From contig CAJXVW010000001.1 of NCBI GenBank assembly GCA_913062645.1, forward strand, positions 1,116,001-1,180,000: a stretch of 64,000 bases of DNA, given 5' to 3'. A program made the translations under genes and the position numbers. Shown piece after piece: positions 37,589 to 62,133 of this stretch. Every line of letters starts with the position of its first letter. Position 1 is the stretch's first letter. Under the pieces are notes generated by a model, which was not told where the DNA came from, did no database searches, and worked only from the letters and a program-made list of their open reading frames with translations. Source of the stretch: an uncultured Mycoplasmatota bacterium (GTDB lineage Bacteria; Bacillota_I; Bacilli_A; Izemoplasmatales; Izemoplasmataceae).

Positions 37589-38200
37589 CTATTTGATGTA
37601 GCCCTGCAACAGGACCGTCAGTTTGGTTTTGATGTTTTGCATCAATGTGTCTTTCGTTACCTCGTTGTCGTACAGATACATGATGAACTCGTAGAGTACG
37701 ATCGAGTAGATGATCTCACTTTGTTTCTGGGTGTCCATCTCCTTGAGTAGTCCCCAGACGATGAGATCGTCGAGGAACTGTTTCATGTCGGCCATGTACT
37801 TGAAGTCGAGTTCGATGAACTTCTTCATCTGTTCCGGTCGTTTCTTGGAAAACCGGATCGTCGCGATCATCAGTTCGGTTAGGATCCGCTTGGGCATCCT
37901 GAACAGGATCTTCGTCAGCTTCTCGAGATGGTTGTAGATAATGTCGACGAGATCGCTCGTCAGATCAATGTCGTACTCCGGTTTGATCGTCGCTTCGGTG
38001 AAGTGTTCGGCGAACGATTCCAAAAACAGATGCACCTTCGAATCGAAATAATTGAACAGCGTCCCCTCGGCGATGCCGACGGTCTTGGCGATGTCCTTGG
38101 TCGAGACGTTCTCGAACCCGTGTTCGAGGAACTTCTCATAGGCCACCACCAGCGTCTTCTCGCGGATGCGGGCCTGTTCTTCTTTGGATATGCGAGCCAT
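37589..38200 (-). CDS. TetR-family repressor of the ABC operon
   Basis: A protein of 203 residues. Residues about 10-58 hold the HTH (EKTLVVAYEKFLEHGFENVSTKDIAKTVGIAEGTLFNYFDSK), followed by a helical ligand-binding domain. GGAGGG precedes the ATG at about 5 nt. As first gene of the operon under a promoter with two matching palindromes, it very probably represses itself and the ABC genes, being relieved by an unknown ligand that the transporter may export. Confidence 0.9.
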   Translation of the reverse strand: MARISKEEQARIREKTLVVAYEKFLEHGFENVSTKDIAKTVGIAEGTLFNYFDSKVHLFLESFAEHFTEATIKPEYDIDLTSDLVDIIYNHLEKLTKILFRMPKRILTELMIATIRFSKKRPEQMKKFIELDFKYMADMKQFLDDLIVWGLLKEMDTQKQSEIIYSIVLYEFIMYLYDNEVTKDTLMQNIKTKLTVLLQGYIK

Positions 38201-40684: not shown

Positions 40685-41707
40685 TTAATTCAGATTCTTA
40701 CTTCTCAGTTGCCCACAGGCGGCGTCGATGTCGCCGCCTTTCTCATGGCGCAGGGTCGCTGTGATGCCGCGATCCATGAGCCGGTGATGAAAGGCTCTGG
40801 CCTTGTCTTCTTCGGTTCCTTCGTAAGAGAACTCATCGACGGGGTTGTAGCGGATCAGATTGACATAGCAGTTCAATCCTCGTAAGAGATCCGACAGTTC
40901 GTCGGCGTGCCACAGTTCGTCGTTGATGCCTTGTAGTAGTATGTATTCGAAGGTGACGCGGCGGTTGGTTTCCTGGACGTAGTGTTTGGCCGCCTGGATG
41001 ACGTCATAAATCGGATAGACGTTGTTGATCTTCATGATGCTGCTTCTGATGTCATCGTTCGGGGCATGGAGACTGATCGCCAGGTTCACCTGACGCGGCT
41101 CCTTGGCGAAGGCGTAGATCTTCGGGACGATGCCGGAGGTACTGACGGTGATGTGTCTGGCTCCGATCTCCAGACCATGCGGATCATTGATGATGTCAAT
41201 GAACCGCATCGTCTCGTCGTAGTTGTCGAAGGGTTCGCCGATGCCCATGATGACGACATGACTGATCCTCTCACCGATGATGTCCTGAACGGAGAGAACT
41301 TGTTGGACCATCTCGCCGGTAGTCAGATCCCGTTTCTTTTTGTGAAGACCTGAAGCACAAAAGGTACAACCAATATTACATCCGACCTGTGAAGTAACAC
41401 ATACACTATTGCCATAATCATGGCGCATTAAAACGGTCTCGATATGATTCTCATCACGCAATGCAAATAGGAACTTCTCAGTTCCATCCGCAGAAACTTG
41501 TCTGGTAATCAGTCTAAATGGATTATTTATGATTTTCTTCGAAAGATACTCCCTTAGTGCGATACTTAGGTTTGTCATCTGATCAAAAGATACTACACGT
41601 TTCTTGTAGTACCACTGAAACAACTGCTGTGCATTGAAAGATTTAAAACCATGTTTTACGAGCAGTTTCGATAATTCGCTCCTTGAATAGTCCTCAATAA
41701 TACTCAG
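40685..41707 (-). CDS. rlmN: Dual-specificity rRNA/tRNA methyltransferase RlmN (apparent CTG start)
   Basis: A radical-SAM enzyme that methylates A2503 of 23S rRNA and A37 of some tRNAs. The cluster motif is CNIGCTFC, the SAM region is GIGEPFDNYD, and the C-terminal catalytic Cys is in AACGQLR. The usual N-terminal domain is present only if translation begins upstream of the first TTG (41623): 28 more codons read SIIEDYSRSELSKLLVKHG, which fits RlmN. The only well-placed start is CTG at 41707, with GGAGTGA exactly 6 nt upstream and an in-frame TGA before it; ATT at 41701 is an alternative. Base composition changes inside the gene near 41.33 kb: the 3' part is GC-rich and the 5' part AT-rich. 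Confidence 0.9.
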   Translation of the reverse strand: MSIIEDYSRSELSKLLVKHGFKSFNAQQLFQWYYKKRVVSFDQMTNLSIALREYLSKKIINNPFRLITRQVSADGTEKFLFALRDENHIETVLMRHDYGNSVCVTSQVGCNIGCTFCASGLHKKKRDLTTGEMVQQVLSVQDIIGERISHVVIMGIGEPFDNYDETMRFIDIINDPHGLEIGARHITVSTSGIVPKIYAFAKEPRQVNLAISLHAPNDDIRSSIMKINNVYPIYDVIQAAKHYVQETNRRVTFEYILLQGINDELWHADELSDLLRGLNCYVNLIRYNPVDEFSYEGTEEDKARAFHHRLMDRGITATLRHEKGGDIDAACGQLRSKNLN

Positions 41708-41723
41708 AAGAAATCACTCCAGG

Positions 41724-42860
41724 TCAGTTAGATTTGCCCACAAACATATTAACATAGTGAGCAACACGCTCAATGTCATCCTTTGTCATATACGGGTGCA
41801 TCGGTAGAGATAAAACTCGCTTGCAAAGGTCGGTAGAAACTGGAAAATCTTCATCTTTCAAATTCATATCTGCATAAGCTGTTTGCTGATGCATTGTTTT
41901 TTTATAGTAAATCATTGAGGGAATATCATTTTGCTTCAGAAAGAGTTGAAGATCTTCTCTCTGTTTCTGAGACTTCAATTTGATGGTGTATTGAGCAAAA
42001 CTTGAGCGATAACACTCTGGAATTATTGGTTTTTCTATCTTTTCAACAAGCAGTTCATTGTATGAATCATAAACTCGATTAACGTCATCCAGTTCGTGAT
42101 TGATTAATGCTTTTAGTTTAACATTCAAAATAGCGGCTTGAATACTATCAAGTCTGGAGTTAACCCCGATTCGAATGTTATCATACTTGTCTTCACCTTT
42201 ACCATGCACTTTGTAGGATCGAATCAACCCTGCAAGTTCATCGTCATTGGTAAAGATTGCACCTCCATCGCCATAGCAACCAAGTGGCTTTGCCGGAAAG
42301 AAAGATGTAGTGGCCGCATCGCCAAAACTGCATGCTCTCCGATCCTTGTATGTAGCTCCGAATCCTTGAGCACCATCTTCTAATATTTTCAAATTATATT
42401 CTTCTGCTACTAATTCAATTGAATCATAGTCCGCTAATAATCCAAATAAGTCAACAGGCATGATTAATTTGGGGCTTAGGATGCCCTCATCAATTGTTTT
42501 CTTGATAGTTGACTCAAGTTTTTTGGCATCAATATTGAAGGTAAAATAATCAACATCAACGAAAACAGGTGTTGCACCAACCATTGACACAACTTCCGCC
42601 GATGCGAAAAAAGTAAAGTTGGGAACAAACACTGCATCTCCCTTGCCAATGCCCCAGGCTCGCAGTACAAGATAAAGTGCATCCGTTCCGTTCGCACAGG
42701 TAATACAATGATTTACACCGACATATGTTGCCAAGGAAGATTCTAACTTCCGCACGTGTTCTCCACCAATAAAAACAGCAGACTTCATTACATCTTGGGT
42801 AAGAGAATCAATTTCATTTCTATACTTCAAGTATTGAGCTTTTAGATCGCGAAACTCCAT
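41724..42860 (-). CDS. wbpE: DegT/DnrJ/EryC1 sugar aminotransferase, WbpE-like
   Basis: A PLP enzyme of 378 residues. The N-terminus MEFRDLKAQYLKYRNEID and the PLP-lysine segment FFPAKPLGCYGDGGA fit WbpE/WlbC. These transfer an amino group from glutamate to the 3-keto group of UDP-2-acetamido-2-deoxy-3-keto-glucuronate. ANGTDALYLVLRA holds the phosphate-binding Thr. It is the last of four adjacent genes that together match the wbpA-B-D-E pathway. AGAGGAATGATG precedes the ATG; the gap to the acetyltransferase gene is 4 bp. Confidence 0.9.
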   Translation of the reverse strand: MEFRDLKAQYLKYRNEIDSLTQDVMKSAVFIGGEHVRKLESSLATYVGVNHCITCANGTDALYLVLRAWGIGKGDAVFVPNFTFFASAEVVSMVGATPVFVDVDYFTFNIDAKKLESTIKKTIDEGILSPKLIMPVDLFGLLADYDSIELVAEEYNLKILEDGAQGFGATYKDRRACSFGDAATTSFFPAKPLGCYGDGGAIFTNDDELAGLIRSYKVHGKGEDKYDNIRIGVNSRLDSIQAAILNVKLKALINHELDDVNRVYDSYNELLVEKIEKPIIPECYRSSFAQYTIKLKSQKQREDLQLFLKQNDIPSMIYYKKTMHQQTAYADMNLKDEDFPVSTDLCKRVLSLPMHPYMTKDDIERVAHYVNMFVGKSN

Positions 42861-42864
42861 AACA

Positions 42865-43431
42865 TCATTCCTCTAACTTTGTAATAGAACTCATATCCTT
42901 CATATAACTACGACCACAAGTATCACATCGAAGATTTTCTGGCAAGGTTTTTCCACATTCGCAAACCCAACCGATCTGCTTCGCAGGCACACCTGCCATT
43001 AATGCATAATCAGGAACATCTTTTGTTACAACTGCACCTGAAGCAATCATTGCCCATCGCCCAATCGTGTTTCCACAAACAATTGTGGCATTTGCCCCAA
43101 TTGTCGCACCATAGAGAACCGTAGTATTAATGTAACCCTCAGGACCTTTTGGGTATTTACTTCGTGGAGTAAGATCGTTCGTAAAAACCATGGAAGGCCC
43201 ACAAAAAACGAAGTCTTCAAGTATTACGCCTTCATACACTGAGACATTGTTCTGAATTTTCACATTGTTGCCAACCACCACATTATTCGCGATATTTACA
43301 TTCTGACCTATTGTACAGTTTTCGCCAATTTTACTCCCACTCTGGATGTGAGAAAAATGCCAAATTTTGGTCTTGTCTCCAATGCAAACATTTTCATCCA
43401 CATAACTACTCTCGTGAACATAGAAACTCAT
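42865..43431 (-). CDS. wbpD: Left-handed beta-helix N-acetyltransferase, WbpD-like
   Basis: A protein of 188 residues made of hexapeptide repeats ([26 protein letters not shown] and similar), as in trimeric acyltransferases. It fits WbpD/WlbB, which acetylates the 3-amino group of UDP-2-acetamido-3-amino-2,3-dideoxy-glucuronate. A C-terminal CECG...CDTCG pattern looks like a small zinc ribbon, seen in some members. Its start codon overlaps the stop of the preceding dehydrogenase gene by 1 nt. Confidence 0.9.
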
Positions 43432-44510
43432 TAGTCAAACCTGCCTTCAAAATCCGTTGTTGAGATTCCATTTATTGGCAACTTAACCGGCTTTCCTGTA
43501 CTCGCCGACAAGTATATTGCTAAAACCAGTTCTAGTGCATTCCTACCATCCACAGCAGTAACGTAGGGTTGTCGTTGATTTCTTATTGCATCAATTACAT
43601 CGGCATATAAAGGAGTGTGACCGAACCCGTAAACGGAGGGCGGATTCTCTTTGTACTCATTCTTGACTTGATCTGGATCATCTAGACCATCCTTGAAGAG
43701 CCACTCTTCAATAATATTAACGCTCTTTCCACCAGCTTTAACCGTCCCATTTTGACCAAAGATAAACAGAGTTTCTTCTAGATTTGAAGGAAAAACATTC
43801 GTTGTGCCCTCAATCAAGCCATAAGATCCGTTCTTAAACCTAACAATCGCCAAACCAAGATCTTCTGCCTCGATAAATGGATGATTCAAATTATCAGTAT
43901 AAGCGAATACTTCAACGACCTCGTTTCCCATCATCCAACGAAGTAGATCAATATTATGTATGCATTGATTCATTAATGCACCACCATCTTGCGACCAAGT
44001 TCCACGCCAAGGTGCTTGTGAGTAGTAAGATTCACCACGATTCCACCGAATGTGAGCAGCTCCATGCAACAATTGTCCGAATCGGTCGTTCAAAATGGCT
44101 TCTCGAATCTTTTGAATAGATTTGTTAAAGCGATTCTGATGGCATGCACTAACTACAAGATTATTCATTTTTGATAGTGAAATAATCTCGTCTGCATCGT
44201 CTAAAGATAATGAAATCGGTTTTTCAATGATCAGATTCACACCTTTTTGTAGACAGTACTTGGCAATCTCCGCATGGTTTCCGCTCTCTGTTGCGATTGA
44301 TATCAGTTGGATGTCTTCTTGTTCTAACATATCTTTGTAGTCGACATACTTCATCACATCCGAAGTTAGTTCAGTTGACTCAATCAAATACTCGATTTTC
44401 TTTAAATCAAGATCACACAAGGCTACAATTTCCAGATTATTATTGATTGCCGCCCTAATGTGATTTGGAGAAATCCTACCACAACCTATCAAGGCAAACT
44501 TAATTGACAT
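43431..44510 (-). CDS. wbpB: Gfo/Idh/MocA dehydrogenase, WbpB-like
   Basis: A protein of 359 residues with an N-terminal Rossmann fold ([17 protein letters not shown]) and the catalytic IIEKPISL Lys-Pro motif of the Gfo/Idh/MocA family. With wbpA, wbpD and wbpE homologues adjacent it is best read as WbpB/WlbA, the NAD-dependent 3-dehydrogenase of UDP-GlcNAcA. The [16 protein letters not shown] stretch and [17 protein letters not shown] are typical of this subgroup. The gap to the upstream wbpA homologue is 12 bp. Confidence 0.9.
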
Positions 44511-44522
44511 TACGTCACCCCT

Positions 44523-45827
44523 CTAAAGCAATTCAATATTGTCTCTGTTCGCTACGTTCTTCATTGCGTTCTTGGTATCAAATATTATTTCTGCATTGTT
44601 TTGAACAAGATTGTAATCAACATTTGTATGCGCAGTTGTCACAACAACCAAATCGGATTCTCGCAATACCTTATCTGTTAGATCATCAAGCCCCTTTTTG
44701 ATTTCACCATGTTCTCTGTACTCTTTGATGTATGGATCATAGAAAATGACTTCTGCTCCAAGTTTTTCCAACTCCTTGATAACATCTATCGCAGGACTTT
44801 CTCTATAATCATCAATGTCTTGCTTATATGCAACTCCCAATACAAGTATCTTGGAGCCGTTTACAGATTTTTTGTATCGATTAAGAATCTTCGAGCTTCT
44901 CTCCGCACAGTATTCTGGCATTTTGTCATTAATCATCATCGAAGATTCAATCATGGATGTATGAAAACCGTACTCTCTTGCTTTCCAAGATAGGTAATAT
45001 GGATCAAGAGGAATACAATGTCCACCCAAGCCAGGTCCGGGATAGAATGCTTGAAATCCGTAGGGTTTTGATTTCGCAGCTTCGATAACTTCCCAAATAT
45101 TGATTTTCATCTTCTCACACAGCATTGCAAGTTCATTAACTAACCCTATGTTAATATTTCTATATGTGTTTTCTAATATTTTTTCCATCTCGGCTATGGC
45201 TGGAGATGAAACCCTATGAACAGGAGCATCTAAGATATTTTCATACATAAGAGCTGCCACTTCGGTACACTTTTTTGTAACACCTCCAACAACTTTTGGT
45301 GTGTTTTTCGTTTTATATATCAAGTTTCCCGGATCAACACGTTCCGGTGAAAAGGCCAAGTAAAAATCTTCACCACATGTTAGACCAGATTTTTCCAAGA
45401 TTGGTTTCAATAATTCTTCTGTTGTGCCAGGGTATGTTGTCGATTCTAAAACAATCAACATGTCTTTGTGCATATATGGTACAATGCTTTCGGCAGATTT
45501 TTTAATATAGCTAATATCGGGTTGCTGATACTGATCAAGTGGTGTAGGTACTGCGATACAAACTGCATCAGCAGATGCTACCTCTGCAATATCAGTAGTA
45601 GCCCTTAATTTACCATCACTAACGATCTTGTAGAGATCCTCATTGACTACGTCACCAATATAGTTCACACCCGAATTGACCATATCCACCTTCTCTTTTT
45701 GAATATCAAAACCAATCGTTTCAAAACCAGCTTTCGCTTTTTCAACAGCCAAAGGCAAGCCAACATAACCCAGACCAACAACACCTAAAATCGCATTTCT
45801 TGAACTCAACTTGTATTTTAAGCTCAT
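44523..45827 (-). CDS. wbpA: UDP-N-acetylglucosamine 6-dehydrogenase, WbpA-like
   Basis: A protein of 434 residues, close to WbpA's usual length. It oxidises UDP-GlcNAc to UDP-GlcNAcA with two NAD. The NAD-binding start is GVVGLGYVGLPLAVEKAKAG; ESTTYPGTTEE and the nucleophile Cys in GPGLGGHCIPLDPYYL are conserved. The ATG giving MSLKYKLSS has AAAGGAGA about 10 nt upstream and starts 4 nt after the wzx stop. It feeds the B-D-E enzymes and makes the first committed precursor. Confidence 0.93.
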   Translation of the reverse strand: MSLKYKLSSRNAILGVVGLGYVGLPLAVEKAKAGFETIGFDIQKEKVDMVNSGVNYIGDVVNEDLYKIVSDGKLRATTDIAEVASADAVCIAVPTPLDQYQQPDISYIKKSAESIVPYMHKDMLIVLESTTYPGTTEELLKPILEKSGLTCGEDFYLAFSPERVDPGNLIYKTKNTPKVVGGVTKKCTEVAALMYENILDAPVHRVSSPAIAEMEKILENTYRNINIGLVNELAMLCEKMKINIWEVIEAAKSKPYGFQAFYPGPGLGGHCIPLDPYYLSWKAREYGFHTSMIESSMMINDKMPEYCAERSSKILNRYKKSVNGSKILVLGVAYKQDIDDYRESPAIDVIKELEKLGAEVIFYDPYIKEYREHGEIKKGLDDLTDKVLRESDLVVVTTAHTNVDYNLVQNNAEIIFDTKNAMKNVANRDNIELL

Positions 45828-45831
45828 AGTT

Positions 45832-47241
45832 TCAAATCTCCTTTCTTCCAAATACTAAAGATTGAACATAATAATTTTTATAAATATGTAAAAGATTCCA
45901 ACAAAACACAAACAAAAACAAAACTACTCTGATCACAACGAAATCACTGATATAAGTTGCGATTATAAGCAAAGTGACTATGCCTATGCTGATTATGAAT
46001 CTACTCATTGGAATATAAAAGCTATATATTTTTTTAGATCCTAGATATCTTAACACAAACAAAATAATGAAACTCAATGATGTCGCTAAGGCGGCTCCGA
46101 TTGTTGAGAAGAATGGAATTAGTAGAAAGTTAAGCAGGAGATTGAGTGTTGCTGCTGACACAGTAGATAAAAACAGTTTCTTTGTTGAATATGAGGAAGT
46201 GTAGATGCTTTCCAAGAACACAGCCAATGAAAAAAACAAATATCCCAAAATTAGAATAGGAACTACAGTCCATGCCTCATAAAAGCCCTTTTGAAATAGC
46301 AACTCAGCAATGTTCTTAATAAAAAAGACTATTAGTGAAGCAATCACGAGATTACATGACAAAATTAAATTGATGGTATCCGAGAAGAGTTTTCTATTAC
46401 CATCACTACCAAAGTCCTCTACTGAAGCAATATACCATGCGGACATGATCATACCCATAATTATTGATAAAATACTTGGAAGTTTATACCCAACAGCATA
46501 TACACCAACTACAGCAGGTCCAAGAATAAAGGTTAGTATTATTTTGTCAGAAGCGTTGATAACCCACCAGCTCAATGCATTAGGAATCATTGGAATGGAG
46601 TATTGCGACATGCGGACTAGCAAATCTTTATTGAAAAATATCACACTATTAAGCAATCCTTTAATATTCTTTATTGCTAAAACAAAAATCGTTAGAATAA
46701 TAAGAAAATGACCTAATATATTTGCCAGTAGAAATCCATTTAGCTTCATGTTAAATACTACTAAAAAAACAATATTCAAGATTATGGTGATGAGTGTACT
46801 GACTATTCCGAGAACAGCATATAGCTTAATTTGATTAGTACCCTTTAAGAACTGATTTAACAACATATGAAGATTTCGAAGTACGAAAAACACAAAGAAC
46901 CAATAATATAAGTCCTCAACGTCAATAAACATACGTACTGCGGGAAAAATCAAGATTAAGATTGTACTACCAATGATCAATACAAACAATGCAACAGCAA
47001 GAATTTGGATTGGGTTAGAATTCTTCTCTAGGGAGAAACGAACTACTGGTTCTGTCATTTGAAGAGTAAGAATTGGTGAGATTAGAAGAGTAATGGTGAG
47101 TATAATATCGAAAATACCGTAATCGGTGGTTGACAAGTAAGTTGTATACAAAGGCAATAAGAGAAAGACTAAAACCTTACTAGAGAATTGGCCAACGGAA
47201 ATCCAACTTAAGTTCTTTACGAACTTTAGATGTCTAGACAT
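45832..47241 (-). CDS. wzx: Wzx-type polysaccharide flippase
   Basis: A membrane protein of 469 residues with about 12-14 helices and the polysaccharide-transporter start VKNLSWISVGQFSSKVLVFLLLPLYTTYLSTTDYGIFDI. MOP-superfamily Wzx proteins flip lipid-linked repeat units across the membrane. GGAGCTGATTT precedes the ATG. It lies between the wbpA homologue and the candidate polymerase, the classical Wzx/Wzy arrangement. Confidence 0.9.
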   Translation of the reverse strand: MSRHLKFVKNLSWISVGQFSSKVLVFLLLPLYTTYLSTTDYGIFDIILTITLLISPILTLQMTEPVVRFSLEKNSNPIQILAVALFVLIIGSTILILIFPAVRMFIDVEDLYYWFFVFFVLRNLHMLLNQFLKGTNQIKLYAVLGIVSTLITIILNIVFLVVFNMKLNGFLLANILGHFLIILTIFVLAIKNIKGLLNSVIFFNKDLLVRMSQYSIPMIPNALSWWVINASDKIILTFILGPAVVGVYAVGYKLPSILSIIMGMIMSAWYIASVEDFGSDGNRKLFSDTINLILSCNLVIASLIVFFIKNIAELLFQKGFYEAWTVVPILILGYLFFSLAVFLESIYTSSYSTKKLFLSTVSAATLNLLLNFLLIPFFSTIGAALATSLSFIILFVLRYLGSKKIYSFYIPMSRFIISIGIVTLLIIATYISDFVVIRVVLFLFVFCWNLLHIYKNYYVQSLVFGRKEI

Positions 47242-47279
47242 AAATCAGCTCCGTTCTATCTAGGATCAAGTTAGTTTAA

Positions 47280-48629
47280 TCAAATCAAAATAACGTAAAT
47301 GACTGCGCCGAGCATTCCTATAATCGTTACGACTACGAGATTATTTATAATAGCTTTCTGTGATGAACTAGCAAGTCCTATGGCAGATAGTATAATCATG
47401 AAAGGATACAATAAAACAAAATGCCTAAATGTAAATGTCGTAAAAGCAATAATTGATAACAGGAGTAAAAACAGAATCAAAAAATAGTTGACTTTCTTTA
47501 TATTTTTAAACAAGAATGGCAATAAGTAGATTTGATATATCGTTCCAATTGATACAATAATATTAATAAGATTCATGGCACTTAATCTTAATGAAAAGAT
47601 GCCTATAACATATGAAGGAAAAGGAGAAATTAAGGCGTAGCCATATCGGAGGATGAAACCGAACGGAAATAGATCACTGCCAAAAACAAAATTTGACAAT
47701 CCATCACTACGGTTGAGTCGATAATCGGTATAACTACTAAATCTAGAAATAATAATATCTACTAAATCTAAACTGAAAACCACATAAATAGCAATTAGCG
47801 AAACAGCTAATGTAATAAGATTCCTTTTCAACCTATTAAACGGAACCTTTCTTGTCTTAAACAACATTAATATCATTACACTAGATAGCGAGATGAATAT
47901 CATCTCAAATCTAGCAAAGTAGAGTAAATATGCAATATATGCGGTCAAGATTACATGAAAAAACGTTATTCTATTTCTAGTAATGCCAAGATCCCAAATA
48001 TTTATCATCACAACCAACAAGAACAAAACGTATACATCTCTAAAAACATGAGCTGAAATAAACAAAGCGTTAGGGAAAATTGCGATTGAGTAAAATATGA
48101 ACAGTGAGAAGTTTTTCTTGCAATCAAAATTTCTGTAGAACATGCCTAAAGAAATTAAAGCAACAGAGTTCAAAAAGTAAATGTTAAGCATTCTTGGAAT
48201 AACTGTGTCGTAACTACCGAATAGTTCTGCAAATCTGGTTACCCAAACCAAAAATACAATATAGCCTTTGGAGTTATTTGCATACTCTAAATAAGTACCT
48301 ATCAATTGTAAGTTACTCGAAATTTCTTCATCAACTAGTAGCTTGCGAGCTAGTTCAAATCTATAGTCGTCTGTTCCACCACTCATAAACGGAACACCAT
48401 ACATCCTTAAATACTCGAAATACAATATCGAAACAAATGCAAACCCCACAAACTGAGCTATAGTGATATGCAAAAGAAGATTGGGATTCACTTTGTCTTT
48501 GGGTAATAATTTATAGAAAAAAATCAACATTGGAACTCCCAAAAATGTAGTTGAAAGTACACCCAAGGAACCAAAAGCAATACTAAATAAAATTCCAATA
48601 ATCAAAGAAACAACTATAAATAAAGCCAT
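47280..48629 (-). CDS. wzy: Candidate polysaccharide polymerase (Wzy-like membrane protein)
   Basis: A protein of 449 residues, almost entirely hydrophobic, with about 11-12 helices and a long loop after the third or fourth helix holding YGVPFMSGGTDDYRFE. The block FISAHVFRDVYVLFLLVVM resembles O-antigen polymerase-like or EpsG-like proteins. Polymerases are poorly conserved, so the call rests mostly on topology and position beside wzx. TAGGAG lies 9 nt before the chosen ATG. Confidence 0.7.
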   Translation of the reverse strand: MALFIVVSLIIGILFSIAFGSLGVLSTTFLGVPMLIFFYKLLPKDKVNPNLLLHITIAQFVGFAFVSILYFEYLRMYGVPFMSGGTDDYRFELARKLLVDEEISSNLQLIGTYLEYANNSKGYIVFLVWVTRFAELFGSYDTVIPRMLNIYFLNSVALISLGMFYRNFDCKKNFSLFIFYSIAIFPNALFISAHVFRDVYVLFLLVVMINIWDLGITRNRITFFHVILTAYIAYLLYFARFEMIFISLSSVMILMLFKTRKVPFNRLKRNLITLAVSLIAIYVVFSLDLVDIIISRFSSYTDYRLNRSDGLSNFVFGSDLFPFGFILRYGYALISPFPSYVIGIFSLRLSAMNLINIIVSIGTIYQIYLLPFLFKNIKKVNYFLILFLLLLSIIAFTTFTFRHFVLLYPFMIILSAIGLASSSQKAIINNLVVVTIIGMLGAVIYVILI

Positions 48630-48993
48630 AGTGCAACTCCTAACTGCTAAAATCCACTTCAACAATAGATCAAAAGCTCGATATGGGGTAACTGCATTTC
48701 ATTAGGTCTTTCTGCGAAATAACAGAATTCTACATTTTGAAGGCTTGAATGTGATATCTCTTCTTCTACCAGATAATAAATCTCAATTTATCCTAATATA
48801 TCGGATGTTATTCACTTATAACACTGCATGATTCAGGTGATTATAGCTCAAATGCTGTTAACCCCTCACTCAATCTGATTAATCTCCAGAGTATTCAGCA
48901 TACCAATGTATATGTTGTAGATAGTTACTCTTAGTGGATATTGGTAACCTGTTACTATAATTTTTCCTCATCTACTTGACATCTATGCTGAAG
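48630..48993 (-). other. 364-bp gap without a recognisable gene
   Basis: AT-rich sequence between the candidate polymerase and the next glycosyltransferase. I see no ORF with a ribosome site, no strong terminator and no clear promoter. It is the only long gap inside an otherwise tightly packed locus, so it may hold a promoter, a transcript leader or gene remains. Confidence 0.5.
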
Positions 48994-50082
48994 TCAACCA
49001 ATAGTATCGCTAATTTGATTTATCAAATCATCATATCTGGCCTTTTTACTGAAGTTAGATACAAATTTAATCGTATTACTTTTATAAAACGAGTAATCAC
49101 TTCTGACCTGTTGTAATGCAGCTGAAATGTCACTACTACTAACACCAACACCAAATTTTTTACATAAATTCTGTAATGGTGGGTTTTCGGAAGTTACTAT
49201 TGGAGTGAGTTCGAATAAACTCTCATATACTTTCCCAGAAGCACAATATTTATTGTTTAACGTATCCATTCCATAAACAGAAATGCTTACATCCGACATT
49301 GAATAAAGGTACCTTAATTCTGACAAACTAACGAACCCCAAGTATACGATATTACTTCCTTGATATGATTTCATGAACTCATGGAATCTATCATACTCGC
49401 GATTTTCAATTGAACCAACAATTATAAGCTTGTATGAGTCATCGAGTTGGGATACGGCTTTGACAATACTCATAGTTTGTCTCTGTTTTGAAATTCCTCC
49501 TGAGTAGATAATTGTAAACTTGTCTGTTCGAAACTGATCCTTTATGTTGTCACTAACATGTTCGGGTACTATTGCGTCCTTTATTGGATGTATATTGTCA
49601 AAAACGTATGGTAATTTGTTCAAGGAGAAATAATCCTGCATTATTTTGGCTCTTTCCAAATTCGCAGCAAAAACAAGATCAACATGTTTTAAGTACTTTT
49701 TCTCATAGTATCTCATGAAGAATGACAGTTTCTCTTTTAAAGATTTTGCTTTTACATTTATATATAGTTCAGCAGAGTCATAAATTATAATTATATTCGG
49801 GAAAAATCTCTTGATGCATTTGATTAATATTGCTGTTTGATTATTGTTTAAAACCACCCACCTAGGTTTGTACTTCCTAATTGCCGACATCGCTGTCAAA
49901 ATAAAGGAAAAATATTTGAAATACCCCTGTTTAGATTTTAGCAACGTTGATTTCGAATCACCAGGTAAATCCCATGGTGAAATTACAAGATTACTTCCAG
50001 ATACATCTTCTACTGCTTCAAGCAATTCAATGTTTCGCATACTTCGAGAAATATTTTTGTAAGTTATTAGAATAGATTCCAT
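48994..50082 (-). CDS. Glycosyltransferase (GT-B fold, GT4-like)
   Basis: A protein of 362 residues. The C-terminal half has FTIIYSGGISKQRQTMSIVKA, LIIVGSIENREYDRF and a Glu-containing block ASGKVYESLFELTPIVTS, the pattern of retaining GT4-type enzymes. The N-terminal half (ILITYKNISRSMRNIELLEA) is the acceptor domain. Donor and acceptor sugars are unknown. The ATG at 50082 has AAAGGTCA upstream. Confidence 0.8.
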   Translation of the reverse strand: MESILITYKNISRSMRNIELLEAVEDVSGSNLVISPWDLPGDSKSTLLKSKQGYFKYFSFILTAMSAIRKYKPRWVVLNNNQTAILIKCIKRFFPNIIIIYDSAELYINVKAKSLKEKLSFFMRYYEKKYLKHVDLVFAANLERAKIMQDYFSLNKLPYVFDNIHPIKDAIVPEHVSDNIKDQFRTDKFTIIYSGGISKQRQTMSIVKAVSQLDDSYKLIIVGSIENREYDRFHEFMKSYQGSNIVYLGFVSLSELRYLYSMSDVSISVYGMDTLNNKYCASGKVYESLFELTPIVTSENPPLQNLCKKFGVGVSSSDISAALQQVRSDYSFYKSNTIKFVSNFSKKARYDDLINQISDTIG

Positions 50083-50134
50083 AGCTTGACCTTTCTTAGA
50101 AAAACTACTATTAATTTGCATGAATGCTAATTTT

Positions 50135-51295
50135 TTAATTCTTATAAATCCTTTTTGCTAACATACTATAATCAAGGTATTTTTTTGCAATGATATATGA
50201 GTTCTTCTCCATTCTTGGAATATCTCTCCGGTGTACACTTATGCTTTCAAAAATTTGTATCATATTACATAAATCTTCAATGATATATCCATTATTGTCA
50301 AAGAATGGCATATAACTATCGTGTGGAGGAATAACAATTGGACAACCACAACAAAGTGCGTTTTGGAGCGATGCAGATTGATTGCCTGGTTGTATGTATA
50401 TATCACAAGCACACATAAGTTGGATCAAATTATCTCTGTTTTGCCATCCCATATATATGATTTTTGGATTAGCTTCAATCAGAGATACTACTTCATCATG
50501 AATGTCCTCTGAAATTGCTCCAGCGACAATCAAAAGCGAGTCTTCATTATTGAAATTGTTGAACTGCCTTAATAATTCTATGGTTTTCTTATATTTCGTG
50601 AGTCTTCCTGTGTGAAGATACACAATTGTATCATCTGTAATGCTCAACTTGTCCCGATTTTTTTTCCTAATCAGTTGTTTTTTATCCTTTTCAACAATAT
50701 TTCCACCAAGTGGGAAAAGCTCTGATTTACTATGACTAGATGGTATATCATAAACTTTTTCCATGAAATATTGACACTCGATTGAAATACTAAATAGCTT
50801 TTCAATATATTCTAAATTTCTTGATAAGATCGGCTTAAAAAAGAACTTATGGAACAAAACTCTAAGCCTTTTGCCTATTTTTGATTTGTAACCAGCCTGA
50901 CCAAACCAAGTGTGGTTGTCTATAAATAGAACAACTTTTTTGTTCTTATTTTTGATATACTTGATAACCCTTTTTAAATCTACGGAGTTTACACCATGGA
51001 AGAATATAATATCAGGCCCAAAATCTTCAAGCTGATCTTCAAATCTTATCAGCTTATTAATTTTTTTGCTAAATGGCATTCTAGAAAATGGTACTCTCCT
51101 AACTTGTATACCATCTGGATTCACATAATCATTAGTTTTCTCATAGTGAACTTCAGTGCCGTTCTTCAATGTTTTGGTGGAGGCAATAATCATTACTTCA
51201 TGGTTATCAATGACATTTTGCCTAGCCAATGCGTTTTCTTGATAATTATAACCTTCAACATAGTAATTTGCGATACAAAAATGTAAGATTTTCAT
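50135..51295 (-). CDS. Glycosyltransferase family 4-like protein
   Basis: A protein of 386 residues with a GT-B fold: MKILHFCIANYYVEGYNYQENALA at the start, then DTIVYLHTGRLTKYKKTIELL, IYMGWQNRDNLIQLMCACDIYIQPGNQS and CGCPIVIPPHDS. Specificity unknown. It overlaps the upstream CapK-like gene by 4 bp (ATGA), so the two are translationally coupled. Confidence 0.82.
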   Translation of the reverse strand: MKILHFCIANYYVEGYNYQENALARQNVIDNHEVMIIASTKTLKNGTEVHYEKTNDYVNPDGIQVRRVPFSRMPFSKKINKLIRFEDQLEDFGPDIIFFHGVNSVDLKRVIKYIKNKNKKVVLFIDNHTWFGQAGYKSKIGKRLRVLFHKFFFKPILSRNLEYIEKLFSISIECQYFMEKVYDIPSSHSKSELFPLGGNIVEKDKKQLIRKKNRDKLSITDDTIVYLHTGRLTKYKKTIELLRQFNNFNNEDSLLIVAGAISEDIHDEVVSLIEANPKIIYMGWQNRDNLIQLMCACDIYIQPGNQSASLQNALCCGCPIVIPPHDSYMPFFDNNGYIIEDLCNMIQIFESISVHRRDIPRMEKNSYIIAKKYLDYSMLAKRIYKN

Positions 51296-52662
51296 ACTTG
51301 ATCATTACCAAAATGTTGCTTACAAACTTTATTTATCACTAGCCTGTGTTTCCCACTATCTGATGCTATCATATGCCCTCCATAGTTTATCCTAATAGGA
51401 TGGGTAAAATTCATTGCATTCCTGAAGAAATCAAGTATCTTCTTCTCATCACTGGTGCCATAAGCATTACTTGTGGATAAATTAATGTCTATAGAATAGT
51501 CGACGTTTTGAACTACCTGAGCTGCAATGATCCCTTGGGAATACATAAAAGCCCTGGATATCCGGCCAAACTTTCTGCCATCAGATGAGAGGAGGTAATC
51601 TTCAATTCTTCCATCAATTGATAAAATCTTTCTCCCTTGTTTCGTTTCAACTATTGTGGCTAGGTCTTGAGTATCATATCTAAGGAGTGGCATTGCGTAA
51701 TTTGATAAGTTGGTTCCAATAATCTTATGTGTTCCATTGTTCGGATAGAACTCTACTGCACAAAAATCACTATCTATTTCAAACTCACCCTTTTCATTTT
51801 GTGAGATGTTTGCAACTCCTTCAGCTAAACCATAATGTTCAAAAACTTCGCTCCCGAACGCCCTTTCAATGGCTTGCTTTTGATACTCTAGCAGTGACTC
51901 TCCACCAGTTGTAATATGTTTGATTTGACCAAACATATCGATCCTATTAGCTATAATATAATTTGCCAATATTGCAACAACTGAAGGAAATCCATGAATC
52001 CAGATAATTTTGCGTCGTTTAATCTCCTCTACATAAGATAATAGGTTTGAGTCTTTCATATGAAAAGCACTAAACAGTATCTGTTTCCCAGGATAGTTTA
52101 TTCTCCAGTAGGGTGGCTTGTGCTGTTTTGCTGGCACAATTGGGTTACTGGAAAAATGGGCACACCATGTACTCATCTGAATCCCATGCAACCTTCTAAA
52201 ACGCCACCATACAGCCCATTGCTCATTTATGGATTGCTTAGTTTTGAGAAACGCAAACCCTGATCCTGTTGTTCCACTGGTTTTGGATTGTACACATTGG
52301 TCTCTTGTAATATTTTCCGCTAGAAGCTGATGATAATTGTCTCTCACAATATCTTTTGTAAGTATTGGCAAAGCTTCGAGTTTTTCAACTGAGTCAATTT
52401 GCTTGTAATCAATCGAATTATCATCAAACATTCTCCTGTAGTATGGGACATTGTTATAGCAGTGGCTGATCAGTTCAATAATCTTTTTTGATTGTATTCG
52501 TGAGATATCACTGGATGATAGTTTATTATTTTTCTCGTACTGTTCTAAATACTCATAAAACTTTCTATTGTAGCGAGATTTCCTTTTTTTATAACCATCT
52601 AGAGAGCAGATCAGATTTTGTAGAAGTACTGGCATTTTGTTATATAACTGCATGTATTTCAT
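51292..52662 (-). CDS. CapK/PaaK-like adenylate-forming enzyme
   Basis: A protein of 456 residues. TSGTTGSG is the ATP-binding P-loop of the ANL superfamily, followed by HYGLAEGVANIS (the Y-GxxE block) and LRYDTQDLA. CapK proteins are frequent in capsule and O-antigen loci and may activate a carboxylate (acyl, amino acid or uronate) for attachment to the glycan. The product is unknown. The N-terminal 60 residues are basic and helical. AAAGGTAA precedes the ATG. Confidence 0.82.
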   Translation of the reverse strand: MKYMQLYNKMPVLLQNLICSLDGYKKRKSRYNRKFYEYLEQYEKNNKLSSSDISRIQSKKIIELISHCYNNVPYYRRMFDDNSIDYKQIDSVEKLEALPILTKDIVRDNYHQLLAENITRDQCVQSKTSGTTGSGFAFLKTKQSINEQWAVWWRFRRLHGIQMSTWCAHFSSNPIVPAKQHKPPYWRINYPGKQILFSAFHMKDSNLLSYVEEIKRRKIIWIHGFPSVVAILANYIIANRIDMFGQIKHITTGGESLLEYQKQAIERAFGSEVFEHYGLAEGVANISQNEKGEFEIDSDFCAVEFYPNNGTHKIIGTNLSNYAMPLLRYDTQDLATIVETKQGRKILSIDGRIEDYLLSSDGRKFGRISRAFMYSQGIIAAQVVQNVDYSIDINLSTSNAYGTSDEKKILDFFRNAMNFTHPIRINYGGHMIASDSGKHRLVINKVCKQHFGNDQV

Positions 52663-52667
52663 TACTA

Positions 52668-54779
52668 TTACCTTTGCATTGTAGTCAGTAGATGTTCAGT
52701 TGCACTAAAAACGTCAACAATTTGATTATTAGTTGACTTACCACTCAAAATATTACTGTAATTTGTGTACTGCTCCACAAAACCCTTATTTTGCCTCAAT
52801 TTAAATTTGGTTCTAGAGAACAAACTAAACCTTTTGATATGCAGATAGTTATTGAGTTCAATTACCTGGCCATTACTGAAAACGCGCAAAAACTCTTTCG
52901 GATATTTCTTTGATCCCATTGATGTATAAATAATATTCGCTATTGCTCCAGATGAGAACTTAATGTTAATTATGGCATTATCTTTTGAAGGATATGCTGC
53001 ATTATTTGCGAAGGTAATATTCATGGAACTAATTTCTGATCCATCTAAATACTGTATGACATCAATAAAATGTACAGCCTCGCCAATTATTCTACCTCCA
53101 CCTAAGGATTCATTTTGAGTCCAGTGATCTTTGGGTAAAAACCCGGCATTTGCTATATACTCATATACCGCTGGTATTTTGTTTGTCTTCAGATCCATTT
53201 TTATTCTTTGTATCAGAGGTGAATGCCTCCGATTTAATCCCACAAATAACTCAGATTCAGATTTTGCATATGCTTGCTTAATTTCAGTCAGTTCAGATGT
53301 TGTTAGACACAAAGGTTTTTCACAATAAACATGTTTATCGTGTGACAACGATTCAATAATTAGTTTCGCATGTGTATTGTGAGGTGTTGATATAGCAATT
53401 AGATCAATCGATTCGTCCTCTAACAGTTTTCTATAATCATTTGTTATATATTCAAAGTCAAACAACTTGTTCATTTGAGCTGAACCAACTCCGCCGGTCG
53501 TCGCTAAAGCAACTAAGTTGTACCTTTTGGCAGCCAACATATTTGGTACTAGAGTATTTTTGGCAAAGTTCCCGGCGCCAATTATTCCTACATTAATTTT
53601 TCGATCATTAATTATTCTTTTTGCTTTTTTGTTTTTCCCATTAACAGTATCTACTAGTTTTTTCTCATTACTACTATACTTAAGTAAAATTCCAATGTAA
53701 TCTTCATTACCCGAGGTAATCATATCATAAGCTTTCTCAGCTTCAACGAAGGGTATCTCGTGTGTAATCAAATCAGAAAAATCAACTCGCTTTTCATGAA
53801 TCAGTCGGACAAACTCTTCCAAATTCCTACCTTCGGTGAATCTAACGTATCCAATTGGATAATCAATTCCTTTTTCTTCATAATCCGTTTCATATCGTCC
53901 TGGTCCATACGAGCGAGCAAGGGTGAAAGTTAGCTCCTTCTCATAATAGGGCCGTCTATCGATATTCATTTGTGTAACTCCAACCATGCAAATAATGCCA
54001 CGATCCCTAACGATTTTAGCTGCTAAATCCATCGGTTGATTACTATTTGTGGCCGCAGTAATAATTACCTTATCAACACCTCTGAATTTTGTGAATCCTT
54101 TTGTGGTCTCTTCTATATTGGGATCAGAAGATAATATAAAAGTCTGCAAATCAGTTTTATCTAATTGTTTATCGGTAATATCATAACCAATAACGTTGCA
54201 TCCGTATGCATTCAAAATTCTAGCCGTAATATGTCCAAGTAAACCCAATCCAATTACAGCAATTGACTCACCCGGTTCAACTTTTGCTTGATGTATCCCT
54301 TGCAAAGCAATTCCACCAAGTGCGCAAAGAGCCGCTTGCCTTGGATCACCAAAATCCTTATGCAGTTTGACGATGAGATTTCGATTGACTCGATTGATTT
54401 CACTATGATACGCCTGTCCTGCCATAGCGACTAAATCACCGACATCAATGTCAGTAATCCCTTTACCACACTCAATAACTCTCCCTACACCTGAATATCC
54501 AATAGGAAATGGTTCTTTGAGTTTGTTGAACGCAGCGTCAATTGTTGTCAAGATGCCATCTGTACTCATCTTGTCAATGACTTGCTTAACCTGGTCAGGT
54601 CTTTCTTTTGCTTTTTGGAGTAAGTTCTTGCTTCCAAAAGAAGCCAAACCACGCTCTGTGCCAGAACTGATTGTTGAATACAATGTTTCAACTATGACGT
54701 AGTTTGTCTTCACCTTGGGCGCCGGTGTTTCAATAAGTTCCACAGATCCATCGTTAACCATCAAGAATAATTGTTTCAT
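52668..54779 (-). CDS. Bi-domain oxidoreductase: zinc-type dehydrogenase fused to Gfo/Idh/MocA
   Basis: A protein of 703 residues. Residues 1-355 form an MDR-type alcohol dehydrogenase domain (ISSGTERGLASFG, GYSGVGRVIECGKGI, Rossmann motif VIGLGLLGH). Residues about 385-700 form a Gfo/Idh/MocA domain (VGIIGAGNFAKNTLVPNM, VYCEKPLCLT, GGGRIIGEAVHFID). This fusion recurs in surface-polysaccharide loci together with a heparinase-like protein and a glycosyltransferase, as here. The reaction is undefined. Its ATG overlaps the stop of the epimerase gene by one base (TAATG). Confidence 0.9.
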   Translation of the reverse strand: MKQLFLMVNDGSVELIETPAPKVKTNYVIVETLYSTISSGTERGLASFGSKNLLQKAKERPDQVKQVIDKMSTDGILTTIDAAFNKLKEPFPIGYSGVGRVIECGKGITDIDVGDLVAMAGQAYHSEINRVNRNLIVKLHKDFGDPRQAALCALGGIALQGIHQAKVEPGESIAVIGLGLLGHITARILNAYGCNVIGYDITDKQLDKTDLQTFILSSDPNIEETTKGFTKFRGVDKVIITAATNSNQPMDLAAKIVRDRGIICMVGVTQMNIDRRPYYEKELTFTLARSYGPGRYETDYEEKGIDYPIGYVRFTEGRNLEEFVRLIHEKRVDFSDLITHEIPFVEAEKAYDMITSGNEDYIGILLKYSSNEKKLVDTVNGKNKKAKRIINDRKINVGIIGAGNFAKNTLVPNMLAAKRYNLVALATTGGVGSAQMNKLFDFEYITNDYRKLLEDESIDLIAISTPHNTHAKLIIESLSHDKHVYCEKPLCLTTSELTEIKQAYAKSESELFVGLNRRHSPLIQRIKMDLKTNKIPAVYEYIANAGFLPKDHWTQNESLGGGRIIGEAVHFIDVIQYLDGSEISSMNITFANNAAYPSKDNAIINIKFSSGAIANIIYTSMGSKKYPKEFLRVFSNGQVIELNNYLHIKRFSLFSRTKFKLRQNKGFVEQYTNYSNILSGKSTNNQIVDVFSATEHLLTTMQR

Positions 54780-55891
54780 TAATTTCTCCCCCCACTCAGC
54801 TCGGTCTCTAGAATGTCAGCTATCCTGACAGAAGCAAAGCCATCACCATAAGGATTGCTTGCCTGGCTCATACGTTCATATTCAGTATGATTTTCCAAAA
54901 GTTCTTTAAAAGACAAATATATGTTTTCTTCATTTGTACCAACGAGTCTGAGCGTTCCCGCTTCAACTCCCTCTGGACGTTCTGTGGTGTTTCTCATAAC
55001 CAACACTGGTTTTCCCAAGCTAGGTGCTTCTTCTTGAATTCCTCCGCTATCAGTTAAAACCAAGAATGCTTTTGCTAAAAAATTGTGAAAATCAATAACA
55101 TCCAATGGTTCAATAATTCTGATCCGATTTGTGTCTCCTAATATCTCATTTGCAGCAGCCCGAACGGCCGGGTTTAAGTGGATTGGATATATCGCCTTAA
55201 TATCGTCAGTCTCATCCAAGATGCGTTTTATTGCTCTAAACATGTTTCTCATAGGCACTCCTAGATTCTCTCTCCTATGAGCAGTTATCAAAATCAACCT
55301 TGAGTCTTGTGCCCAATCTAAATGCTCATGAGCGTAATCATTCATTACGGTTGTTCGTAAAGCATCTATAGCAGTGTTACCAGTAACATAAATTCTATTT
55401 TTGAGTTTACCTTCTTTTATTAAATTAGCTTTCGAGACTTCGGTAGGTGCAAAATTATATGATGAAATTATGCTAACCGCTTGACGATTGAATTCTTCAG
55501 GAAATGGCGAATCCAAATTATATGTTCTTAGGCCAGCTTCAACATGACCGACTGGAATTTTTAGGTAAAAGCAAGCTAAAGCAGTAACGAAAGTTGTGGA
55601 AGTATCGCCATGAACTAAAACAATGTCAGGGTCAACTTGTTGAAGAACTCGTTTCATCTTATCAAGAATGCTAATCGTAACATCGAAAAGGGTTTGCTGA
55701 ACTTTCATAATGGATAAATCAAAATCCGGTTTCACATTGAAAGTTTCCAACACCTGATCAAGCATTTCCCTGTGTTGCCCAGTCACACAAACCACTGTGT
55801 TTATCGATTTTCTCTTCTTTAGTTCGTTTACTAGCGGGCACATTTTTATTGCCTCAGGTCTTGTACCAAAAACTACCATGATTGATTTCAT
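54779..55891 (-). CDS. wecB: UDP-N-acetylglucosamine 2-epimerase (non-hydrolysing)
   Basis: A protein of 370 residues. The start MKSIMVVFGTRPEAIKM, the VHGDTSTTF and GHVEAGLRT blocks, ITAHRREN and LTDSGGIQEEAP are all standard for WecB/MnaA. It converts UDP-GlcNAc to UDP-ManNAc. The next gene in the pathway (wecC) is directly upstream in the operon. A paralogue role acting on the diacetamido uronate (WbpI-like) is possible but less likely from the N-terminal motif. AGAGGTG precedes the ATG. Confidence 0.94.
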   Translation of the reverse strand: MKSIMVVFGTRPEAIKMCPLVNELKKRKSINTVVCVTGQHREMLDQVLETFNVKPDFDLSIMKVQQTLFDVTISILDKMKRVLQQVDPDIVLVHGDTSTTFVTALACFYLKIPVGHVEAGLRTYNLDSPFPEEFNRQAVSIISSYNFAPTEVSKANLIKEGKLKNRIYVTGNTAIDALRTTVMNDYAHEHLDWAQDSRLILITAHRRENLGVPMRNMFRAIKRILDETDDIKAIYPIHLNPAVRAAANEILGDTNRIRIIEPLDVIDFHNFLAKAFLVLTDSGGIQEEAPSLGKPVLVMRNTTERPEGVEAGTLRLVGTNEENIYLSFKELLENHTEYERMSQASNPYGDGFASVRIADILETELSGGRN

Positions 55892-55907
55892 ATTTGCACC
55901 TCTATAA

Positions 55908-57128
55908 TTACAGTTTGTAAACACCTTTTACTGATGTAATATTTTTGGTATCAAGGATGTATAGATCTTTGATATCATTTATCTTCTCTAGTATCTCATT
56001 GTGAGCAACCATGATTACCATCAATTCTATCGAGTTGATGAACTCATCAAACTGAAACAATTGATTCGAAACTAGTTGTTCTTTTATATATGGATCATAT
56101 ACTTTATATCCATGTAACAGATTCTTTTCAAGTTGAGTTATCAATTGTAAGGTTGGGCTTTCTCTAGTATCATCAACATTTTCTTTGTATGTTATCCCAT
56201 AAAGTCCGACCTTTGAAAAATCTTTCATACGATGTTCTTTCATAATGAAACGAATCCTATCAAGAACAAATCGAGGCATTGAATCATTCACTTCTCTTGC
56301 TGATAATATTAGTTTTGTTAGTTTTGGGTAATCTCCAACTAAGAACCAAGGATCAACAGAGATACAATGACCACCCACTCCAGGTCCAGGTCTTAAAATA
56401 TTCACTCTTGGGTGCTTATTCGCAATTCGAATTATCTCATAAACATCCATGTTGTCAGCTCTGCAAATCTTTGCAAGTTCATTGGCAAACGCGATATTAA
56501 CATCACGGAATGTATTTTCAACCACTTTTGACATCTCTGCAGATCTAATATCTGTCAACACAATTTCACCTTGACAAAACTTTTTGTAGATATTTTTTAC
56601 CTTTTCAGCTGTTTCAAGATCATCTGCACCAATTGTTCGCGAGTTATTAACCAACTCATAAATCATATTCCCAGGAATTATTCTCTCAGGTGCATGAACT
56701 AGATGAATATCAGTGCCAACGGTTAGCCCATTTCGTTCAACCTCAGGTCGAATGTACTTGTCAATAGATCCAGGTGATATGGTTGATTCAATTATTATAA
56801 TTGAACCCATCTCGCAGACTTCAATAATCGAGTTTATCGCTGATATCACGTATGACGGATCCAACTTTTTATTCAAGTGAAGATACGGAGTTGGAACTGC
56901 AACAATATAAAGGCTTGTTTTGTGGTACTCTGTCGTGAACTCGATATTTCCGCTCGCAGCATTAAAGAGCTCACTCAAACCTTGTTCTTCGAATGAAAGT
57001 TTCCCTTCAGTGAGTTTTTCTACCAATTTTTCATCATAATCTGTACCTACAACCCTGATTCCACTTTTCGCCAACATCAATGCAGTTGGCAAGCCAATGT
57101 AACCCAAACCAATAACATTCACAAACAT
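55908..57128 (-). CDS. wecC: UDP-N-acetyl-D-mannosamine dehydrogenase
   Basis: A protein of 406 residues. VNVIGLGYIGLPTALMLAKSG is the NAD site, VAVPTPYLH and IIESTISPGS follow, and GPGVGGHCISVDPWFLV contains the catalytic Cys. The SVDPWFLV form fits ManNAc dehydrogenases rather than UDP-Glc dehydrogenases. It makes UDP-ManNAcA from the WecB product. GAGGTGA lies 5 nt before the ATG. It differs clearly from the WbpA-like dehydrogenase elsewhere in the locus. Confidence 0.93.
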   Translation of the reverse strand: MFVNVIGLGYIGLPTALMLAKSGIRVVGTDYDEKLVEKLTEGKLSFEEQGLSELFNAASGNIEFTTEYHKTSLYIVAVPTPYLHLNKKLDPSYVISAINSIIEVCEMGSIIIIESTISPGSIDKYIRPEVERNGLTVGTDIHLVHAPERIIPGNMIYELVNNSRTIGADDLETAEKVKNIYKKFCQGEIVLTDIRSAEMSKVVENTFRDVNIAFANELAKICRADNMDVYEIIRIANKHPRVNILRPGPGVGGHCISVDPWFLVGDYPKLTKLILSAREVNDSMPRFVLDRIRFIMKEHRMKDFSKVGLYGITYKENVDDTRESPTLQLITQLEKNLLHGYKVYDPYIKEQLVSNQLFQFDEFINSIELMVIMVAHNEILEKINDIKDLYILDTKNITSVKGVYKL

Positions 57129-57132
57129 ACCT

Positions 57133-58998: not shown

Positions 58999-60248
58999 AA
59001 GCCTTCAAACACCTTTGCTAGCTTAATAGTCAATGATTTGAAATCAAAGTCTCTCGCACCTAATTGCCCGTTAATACCAAAGGACTCTAATTGCGCCTTA
59101 GGTTGTTCAAACATAGCAATAATTGCCTTAGCAATATCTACACCCGAAGGATTTGACAACTCAATACCACAATTATATTTTTCAATTATGGAGTATCCCA
59201 TCTTTACTGTCGAGAGTATTGGTTTGCCTGAAGCCATATATTCGAACAACTTATTTGAACTACTACCTCTCTCCCAATTGTATTTCGTTTGTGAGTAGTT
59301 TAAAATATTGAGAGATGATTTGCTCAAAATATATGGGATCATTTCCTTTTTTACTTGACCTTTAAATACAATGTTATTCAAGCCTTCGCTTGTAATAATA
59401 CTCTCAAGTCTCTCTCTTTCACTTCCGTCACCATAAATTAGGAACTTGATACGATCTTCGTTCCTCAACGCAATCGCTGCATCTACAATCTTCTCCAAGT
59501 TATTAACAGGTCGTATTGCACCTACATAAATAACTTTGAACAACTCGGATTTTAAATCCTCATCATATAATTCTGTACTCTCGATTTGGCTGAAATATTG
59601 GTGTAAATCGATTCCATTATTTATATAATGGACTCTCTGAAGGTCGATCGGTCCACCTTGTTCGATTGTCCATCCTCTCTCAACAAGATATTGATGATCC
59701 CCCTCCTTTAAGAATATGATCGAATTTGATTTCTTATACATCCATTTTTCACCAAGAACTAATAATCTACCTAAAATGCTTTTTTCTTTTGCTCTATCAA
59801 AAGCAAATATTGCCTCAGGCCATAAATCCCTAATCTCTGACACGACAGGTACGTTTAGTCTATTTGCAATCTTTATACCTGCTACAATGGTCAATGGATG
59901 TACGCTAGATGCATAAATAATATCAGGTTTTCCATAAATCTTCATGATTTCTTTATAACTTAACATCAAGTTCACATAGAATGATATCATATTCTTTAAT
60001 CGAGACAAACCATTACCTTTATATGACGAAGATTTGACAAACACAAACGGGACTTCTTTGTCAGATCTATTAACTATCCTGTTTCGCGTTTTAGTAATTT
60101 GAGCGTCTACTGTATGTAGAGTGCTAGCTGATATTATTAGTGGTGAGTAGCCGGATTTTGACAAGTATTTTGCAAACCAATAGTGTCTACCACCTTCGTT
60201 TATATACATTTCGGTTGCATAGTGGTTCATGATCCAAACATTCTTCAT
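58995..60248 (-). CDS. Glycosyltransferase family 4, WbuB-like
   Basis: A protein of 417 residues. The start VWIMNHYATEMYINEGGRHYWFAKYL, VVSEIRDLWPEAI, VIYVGAIRPVNNLEKI and RGSSSNKLFEYMASGKPIL fit the WbuB group that typically adds N-acetyl-fucosamine-type or related amino sugars. Its position next to the initiating transferase suggests it adds an early sugar. It starts inside the stop of the 34-residue ORF (ATGA overlap). Confidence 0.88.
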   Translation of the reverse strand: MKNVWIMNHYATEMYINEGGRHYWFAKYLSKSGYSPLIISASTLHTVDAQITKTRNRIVNRSDKEVPFVFVKSSSYKGNGLSRLKNMISFYVNLMLSYKEIMKIYGKPDIIYASSVHPLTIVAGIKIANRLNVPVVSEIRDLWPEAIFAFDRAKEKSILGRLLVLGEKWMYKKSNSIIFLKEGDHQYLVERGWTIEQGGPIDLQRVHYINNGIDLHQYFSQIESTELYDEDLKSELFKVIYVGAIRPVNNLEKIVDAAIALRNEDRIKFLIYGDGSERERLESIITSEGLNNIVFKGQVKKEMIPYILSKSSLNILNYSQTKYNWERGSSSNKLFEYMASGKPILSTVKMGYSIIEKYNCGIELSNPSGVDIAKAIIAMFEQPKAQLESFGINGQLGARDFDFKSLTIKLAKVFEGL

Positions 60249-60349
60249 ATTCTAAACCCTGGTCCATCTGGAATATTTTCAGATTTCTCATTTTTCTTGA
60301 TAGTTATTATTTCAATGGATTTAGGTCCAATAATGAGTTTTGATTTCAT
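60245..60349 (-). CDS. 34-residue ORF with strong ribosome site
   Basis: A short reading frame fills the gap between the initiating transferase and the WbuB-like gene. It has a perfect GGAGGT site 4-5 nt before its ATG and ends by overlapping the next ATG as ATGA. The peptide is MKSKLIIGPKSIEIITI followed by a charged, Gly/Pro-rich tail ending GPGFRI. It matches nothing I recognise. It could be a functional small protein, a leader that tunes translation of the glycosyltransferase, or the remains of a larger gene. Confidence 0.6.
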   Translation of the reverse strand: MKSKLIIGPKSIEIITIKKNEKSENIPDGPGFRI

Positions 60350-60364
60350 ATGTACCTCCATTTT

Positions 60365-62103: not shown

Positions 62104-62133
62104 CAATTACTCATCCTTCATACAGTTTGACTA

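Follow-up and report, generated by a model that had tools for sequence, protein, structure and literature searches.

The ATT start of infC, the gene for IF3, is a widely conserved and regulatory near-cognate start codon. CUG starts have been quantified as well. They account for 0.024% of bacterial starts and reach ~0.86% of the AUG yield when assayed in E. coli (both figures as cited in PMC11497404), and AUG-to-CUG switches were found at 2 of 61,358 ancestral AUG starts (Belinky et al. 2017, PMC5622118). Since 0.024% of the starts of ~1,900 genes amounts to about half a CUG start, one example in a genome is not astonishing. Here we analysed a window of 64,000 nucleotides from an uncultured Mycoplasmatota bacterium (contig CAJXVW010000001.1, positions 1,116,001 to 1,180,000), in which translation of rlmN most likely starts at a CTG, judging from the sequence around it and from homologous genes. 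Our overall reading, which we consider distinctly probable, is that rlmN is intact, functional and translated from this CTG, that insertion of a foreign operon removed its promoter and replaced ~125 codons, and that rlmN, now at the distal end of this operon, is translated by coupled re-initiation. The gene and its start region comprise the following features.

40685..41707, minus strand: rlmN, 340 codons from CTG, matching TIGR00048 with 417.5 bits (cut-off 290)
40685-40687, minus strand: rlmN stop codon
40658..40679, minus strand: intrinsic terminator 3' of rlmN, a 9-bp stem with a T-run
41705..41707, minus strand: proposed rlmN start codon CTG, homologous to the canonical starts in 34 relatives
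41714..41720, minus strand: Shine-Dalgarno (SD) motif GGAGTGA, with a 6-nt spacer to CTG and an in-frame TGA as its final three bases
41621..41623, minus strand: TTG, codon 29, the first canonical in-frame start, which lacks an SD motif and is judged not to be the start

The rlmN product is predicted to be the dual-specificity 23S rRNA A2503 / tRNA A37 C2-methyltransferase. Read from CTG, the protein has 340 aa, of which residues 4-338 match TIGR00048 well above its equivalog cut-off, in keeping with the original prediction that this reading fits RlmN. The RlmN_N domain (PF21016, residues 6-58, 5e-15) is whole only with the CTG reading, the radical SAM CxxxCxxC motif is present as CNIGCTFC (residues 110-117), and so is the catalytic C-terminal cysteine region (DIDAACGQL). 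This is the sole copy, as the organism's own genome gives a single rlmN match and no second one. All 34 highly conserved residues among the first 120 positions are kept, including all 26 invariant ones, as are 85 of 85 highly conserved residues in the C-terminal part, and the reading frame is intact, with no frameshifts or internal stops in rlmN or its neighbours. The complete retention of conserved residues in the N-terminal part argues that rlmN is not a decayed gene.

The minus strand around position 41707 reads TCT AAC TGA CCT GGAGTGA TTTCTT CTG AGT ATT ATT GAG GAC TAT, and the coordinates, motif and spacer first described for it are all exact: GGAGTGA lies 6 nt before CTG 41707, and the in-frame stop said to precede the CTG is TGA 41716-41714. 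Only TTT and CTT separate this TGA from the CTG, so RlmN can begin at most two codons before the CTG. Entry into rlmN from the upstream gene by frameshift or read-through was considered and rejected because both frames are closed, one by the stop of the upstream aminotransferase gene at 41724 and the other by the in-frame TGA at 41714. The ribosome site of the CTG is ordinary in strength: its SD:anti-SD duplex has a predicted energy of -8.5 kcal/mol, where 275 sampled genes average -10.1, and there is no unusual amount of structure around the start, which is less structured than shuffled sequence (z +1.38). GTGAT is kept in GGAGTGATTTCTT and matches the GGTGAT leader of rlmN in relatives. A start at TTG 41623 has in its favour that no other canonical start codon precedes it in frame. 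However, as originally claimed, it has no ribosome site (+1.4 kcal/mol) and removes 28 residues of the N-terminal domain, leaving a 312-aa protein in which RlmN_N would be halved, as the position of the domain implies. Codons 2-28 moreover keep the conserved residues K22 and Q28, and no relative starts there, which together make a shortened RlmN very improbable. Scarcely probable at all is a start at one of the ATT codons at positions 3 and 4, which are near-cognate too and recall the apparent ATT start with a strong SD at 6 nt in infC of the same genome; for them the SD would lie 12 or 15 nt away, and the start position homologous to that of relatives is the CTG codon.

The comparison of start codons covered 34 rlmN genes, drawn from the family, the order and a few outgroups, with the position counted back from conserved residues. 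In nearly all of them the start is at the codon homologous to CTG 41707, and it is canonical throughout (29 ATG, 3 GTG and 2 TTG), whereas none starts at the codon homologous to TTG 41623. The usual leader in these relatives consists of TATAAT, 10-20 nt, GGTGATnnn and the start codon, and a CTG start of rlmN was seen in this genome only. The homologous start position, the strength and spacing of the SD, the halving of RlmN_N otherwise and the 34 of 34 conserved N-terminal residues thus all uphold the proposal that rlmN starts at CTG. The same comparison bears on whether the C at 41707 arose in sequencing or assembly and hides a canonical codon. A single base separates CTG from the ATG, GTG and TTG of relatives, and AUG-to-CUG switches are very rare (the 2 in 61,358 of PMC5622118); against this stand an assembly of two contigs that is 99.7% complete and the absence of frameshifts and internal stops in rlmN and its neighbours, and we regard such an error as rather unlikely, though it is the chief doubt about the CTG start. 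A separate observation concerns the distribution of the gene in the family, where no rlmN match was found in four genomes (G007, G022, G028 and G034; 0.7-1.0 Mb, 81-96% complete) that make up all four of genus g5, a pattern suggesting that rlmN was lost in a reduced lineage.

This organism seems to follow the usual rules for starting translation. The anti-SD is present and canonical (GGATCACCTCCTTTC), the initiator tRNA has GGGCTCATAACCC, i.e., the normal three G-C pairs, and IF3 (infC) is present. As all three are ordinary, a relaxed recognition of start codons in the organism was rejected as an explanation. The apparent start codon of infC (infC region, genome C1 987355-987855) is ATT, which GAGGAGGTG precedes by 6 nt, and autoregulation of IF3 via a near-cognate start thus seems to have been kept. 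A scan of ~400 kb of the genome found no other convincing non-canonical start, the scan being weak for low-GC genes and leaving rlmN itself unflagged.

The second finding is that the likely cause of the CTG start, which the original prediction had missed, lies in the neighbourhood of the gene: the sequence points to replacement of the promoter and 5' end of rlmN by a horizontally acquired polysaccharide operon. The relevant features are as follows.

41724..42860, minus strand: DegT/DnrJ/EryC1/StrS aminotransferase gene (PF01041, E 1.2e-101), the last gene of the polysaccharide operon
41724..64000 and on to about genome position 1180439, minus strand: low-GC polysaccharide-biosynthesis operon, recognized by low GC, gene list and synteny
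Genome C1 1180604-1181677: tyrosine recombinase (PF00589), flanked by the polysaccharide operon on one side and the displaced flavodoxin gene on the other
Genome 1181823-1182251: displaced flavodoxin gene, beyond the polysaccharide operon and the tyrosine recombinase
37589..38200, minus strand: tetR, native downstream neighbour of rlmN, 59% identity, in the order rlmN-tetR-ABC-permease as in G002
36872-37576: ABC ATPase, native downstream neighbour of rlmN
34476-36869: permease, native downstream neighbour of rlmN

In two relatives of the same genus, G002 and G003, a divergent flavodoxin gene lies upstream of rlmN, which has its own TATAAT-type promoter and GTGAT leader; in G002 the gap between the two genes is ~100 nt and lacks the polysaccharide operon. 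Downstream of rlmN, tetR, ABC ATPase, permease and further genes follow in G002, and the ABC ATPase in G003. In our window the same tetR, ABC ATPase and permease genes lie downstream, separated from rlmN only by a low-GC insert at 38311-40451. As the downstream neighbours are those of G002 while the upstream ones have been replaced, rlmN is still at its ancestral site, with everything 5' of it new. The operon spans ~23-24 kb at a GC of 0.32-0.41, compared with 0.49-0.58 elsewhere in the window, and the stop codon of the aminotransferase gene (TGA 41726-41724) lies 16 nt before the CTG of rlmN. Its content is that of an exopolysaccharide or capsule operon, with glycosyltransferases, a flippase, UDP-sugar dehydrogenases and DegT aminotransferases. 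A promoter of the G002 type is absent both upstream of rlmN and beside the displaced flavodoxin gene, no native 5' remnant of rlmN was found in the organism's own genome or in the stretch beyond the island, and a search for the same operon end in 60 relatives gave no homologue of the aminotransferase at E values up to 1e-80. Of the traits of an integrase-borne island, foreign composition, broken native synteny and an integrase at one end are all present, whereas att repeats are not (no exact repeat of at least 12 nt between the island ends). The tyrosine recombinase has a GC of 0.61, unlike that of the polysaccharide operon. A rearrangement of this size, with promoter and leader lost right beside the CTG, is a reason in its own right to expect an altered start region and argues against a base error. 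The insert between rlmN and tetR (38311-40451, minus strand) is a Pycsar-like anti-phage locus. It encodes two cyclases, a PycC (PDLC02368, E 1e-79) and another with weak PycC similarity (E 6e-6), together with a DUF3307 membrane protein. Our literature search found no link between DUF3307 and Pycsar.

The composition of rlmN itself is mosaic, with two parts.

41333..41707, minus strand: low-GC 5' part of rlmN, about codons 1-125, GC3 0.36
40685..41332, minus strand: native-composition 3' part of rlmN, GC3 0.72

The GC3 change point (LLR 21) falls at about codon 121-130, at or just after CNIGCTFC. The native genome has a GC of 46-56% in 17 sampled stretches of 20 kb, and among 224 long ORFs a stronger GC3 switch was seen in four only. 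Judged from their translations, these four are apparently ORFs with spurious upstream extensions, and with them set aside the switch in rlmN is the strongest in the sample. RlmN residues 128-340 are 80% identical to G002, and the terminal branch of RlmN is 1.13 long for the first 120 residues (median 0.37) versus 0.15 for residues 129-340 (median 0.19). The low-GC 5' part therefore probably came with the upstream island, an import that is well supported by composition and less so by phylogeny. As the phylogenetic conflict of the first 120 residues is not significant and a native origin is not rejected (p-AU 0.45), the case for import is made by composition and branch length. The search for a donor of the 5' part gave no close match, the best DNA match being 79% over 156 nt (same order) and the best protein match 63% (same class).

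The scenario that we infer, covering CTG use by rlmN, transcription from the operon, coupling, lowered yield and the crossover mechanism, would begin with insertion of the ~23-24 kb foreign polysaccharide operon between rlmN and the divergent flavodoxin gene. In this event the promoter of rlmN was lost, and low-GC sequence would have taken the place of roughly the first 125 codons. The junction on the rlmN side would probably come from crossing-over between homologous sequences within the highly conserved CxxxCxxC region, since the GC3 break at CNIGCTFC falls in one of the most conserved stretches, the likeliest place for a crossover between diverged copies. With native promoter and 5' end replaced, rlmN would now stand at the end of a foreign operon, start at a near-cognate codon and be transcribed by read-through from the polysaccharide genes up to the terminator at 40679-40658. 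Ribosomes finishing the aminotransferase would re-initiate with fMet at GGAGTGA-N6-CTG, re-initiation by upstream-gene ribosomes being probable at a distance of only 16 nt. Reduced expression of rlmN from CTG is plausible, and a low RlmN dose could be tolerated because E. coli that has lost RlmN is little affected in growth and shows no obvious defect in it (PMC10117853). The same tolerance, together with the loss of both promoter and canonical start, the long branch of the N-terminal part and the family genomes without an rlmN match, would also fit a hypomorph or early pseudogene whose start was destroyed by the insertion and which is hardly translated. This is unlikely given the intact frame, the kept SD and the full set of highly conserved residues in the N-terminal (34/34) and C-terminal (85/85) parts. 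A bolder version of the coupled re-initiation that we favour, in which the island-borne 5' end rebuilt rlmN under operon and CUG control, RlmN dosage is low, polysaccharide-coupled and IF3-sensitive, and the CTG is a selected dosage setting rather than damage, is a speculation to which we give little credence.

These findings link the near-cognate start of a conserved gene with one particular event, in which an acquired operon took the place of promoter and leader. They are relevant to how start codons disappear after horizontal transfer and how such losses are tolerated. There is also a practical side, since gene callers would mis-annotate this rlmN as a 312-aa protein. Like infC with its AUU start, rlmN is conserved and translation-related, and its near-cognate start has an SD at 6 nt; unlike the ATT of infC, which is widely conserved and regulatory, its CTG was found in this genome only. 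Islands with a tyrosine recombinase that land beside or in housekeeping genes likewise show a change in composition, an integrase at the far end and a disrupted pair of conserved genes, but the rlmN island has no att repeats and its rlmN-side junction resembles an intragenic crossover rather than site-specific recombination. Natural bacterial CUG starts (PMC5622118) share with rlmN a single near-cognate change in the first base of the homologous canonical start and retention of the SD, the difference being that in rlmN, a housekeeping gene, the switch coincides with a foreign operon replacing promoter and 5' end. The CTG of rlmN leaves the knowledge of initiation unchanged and is probably a further example of the known rare AUG-to-CUG switches, to which it adds a recombination event as the likely explanation.
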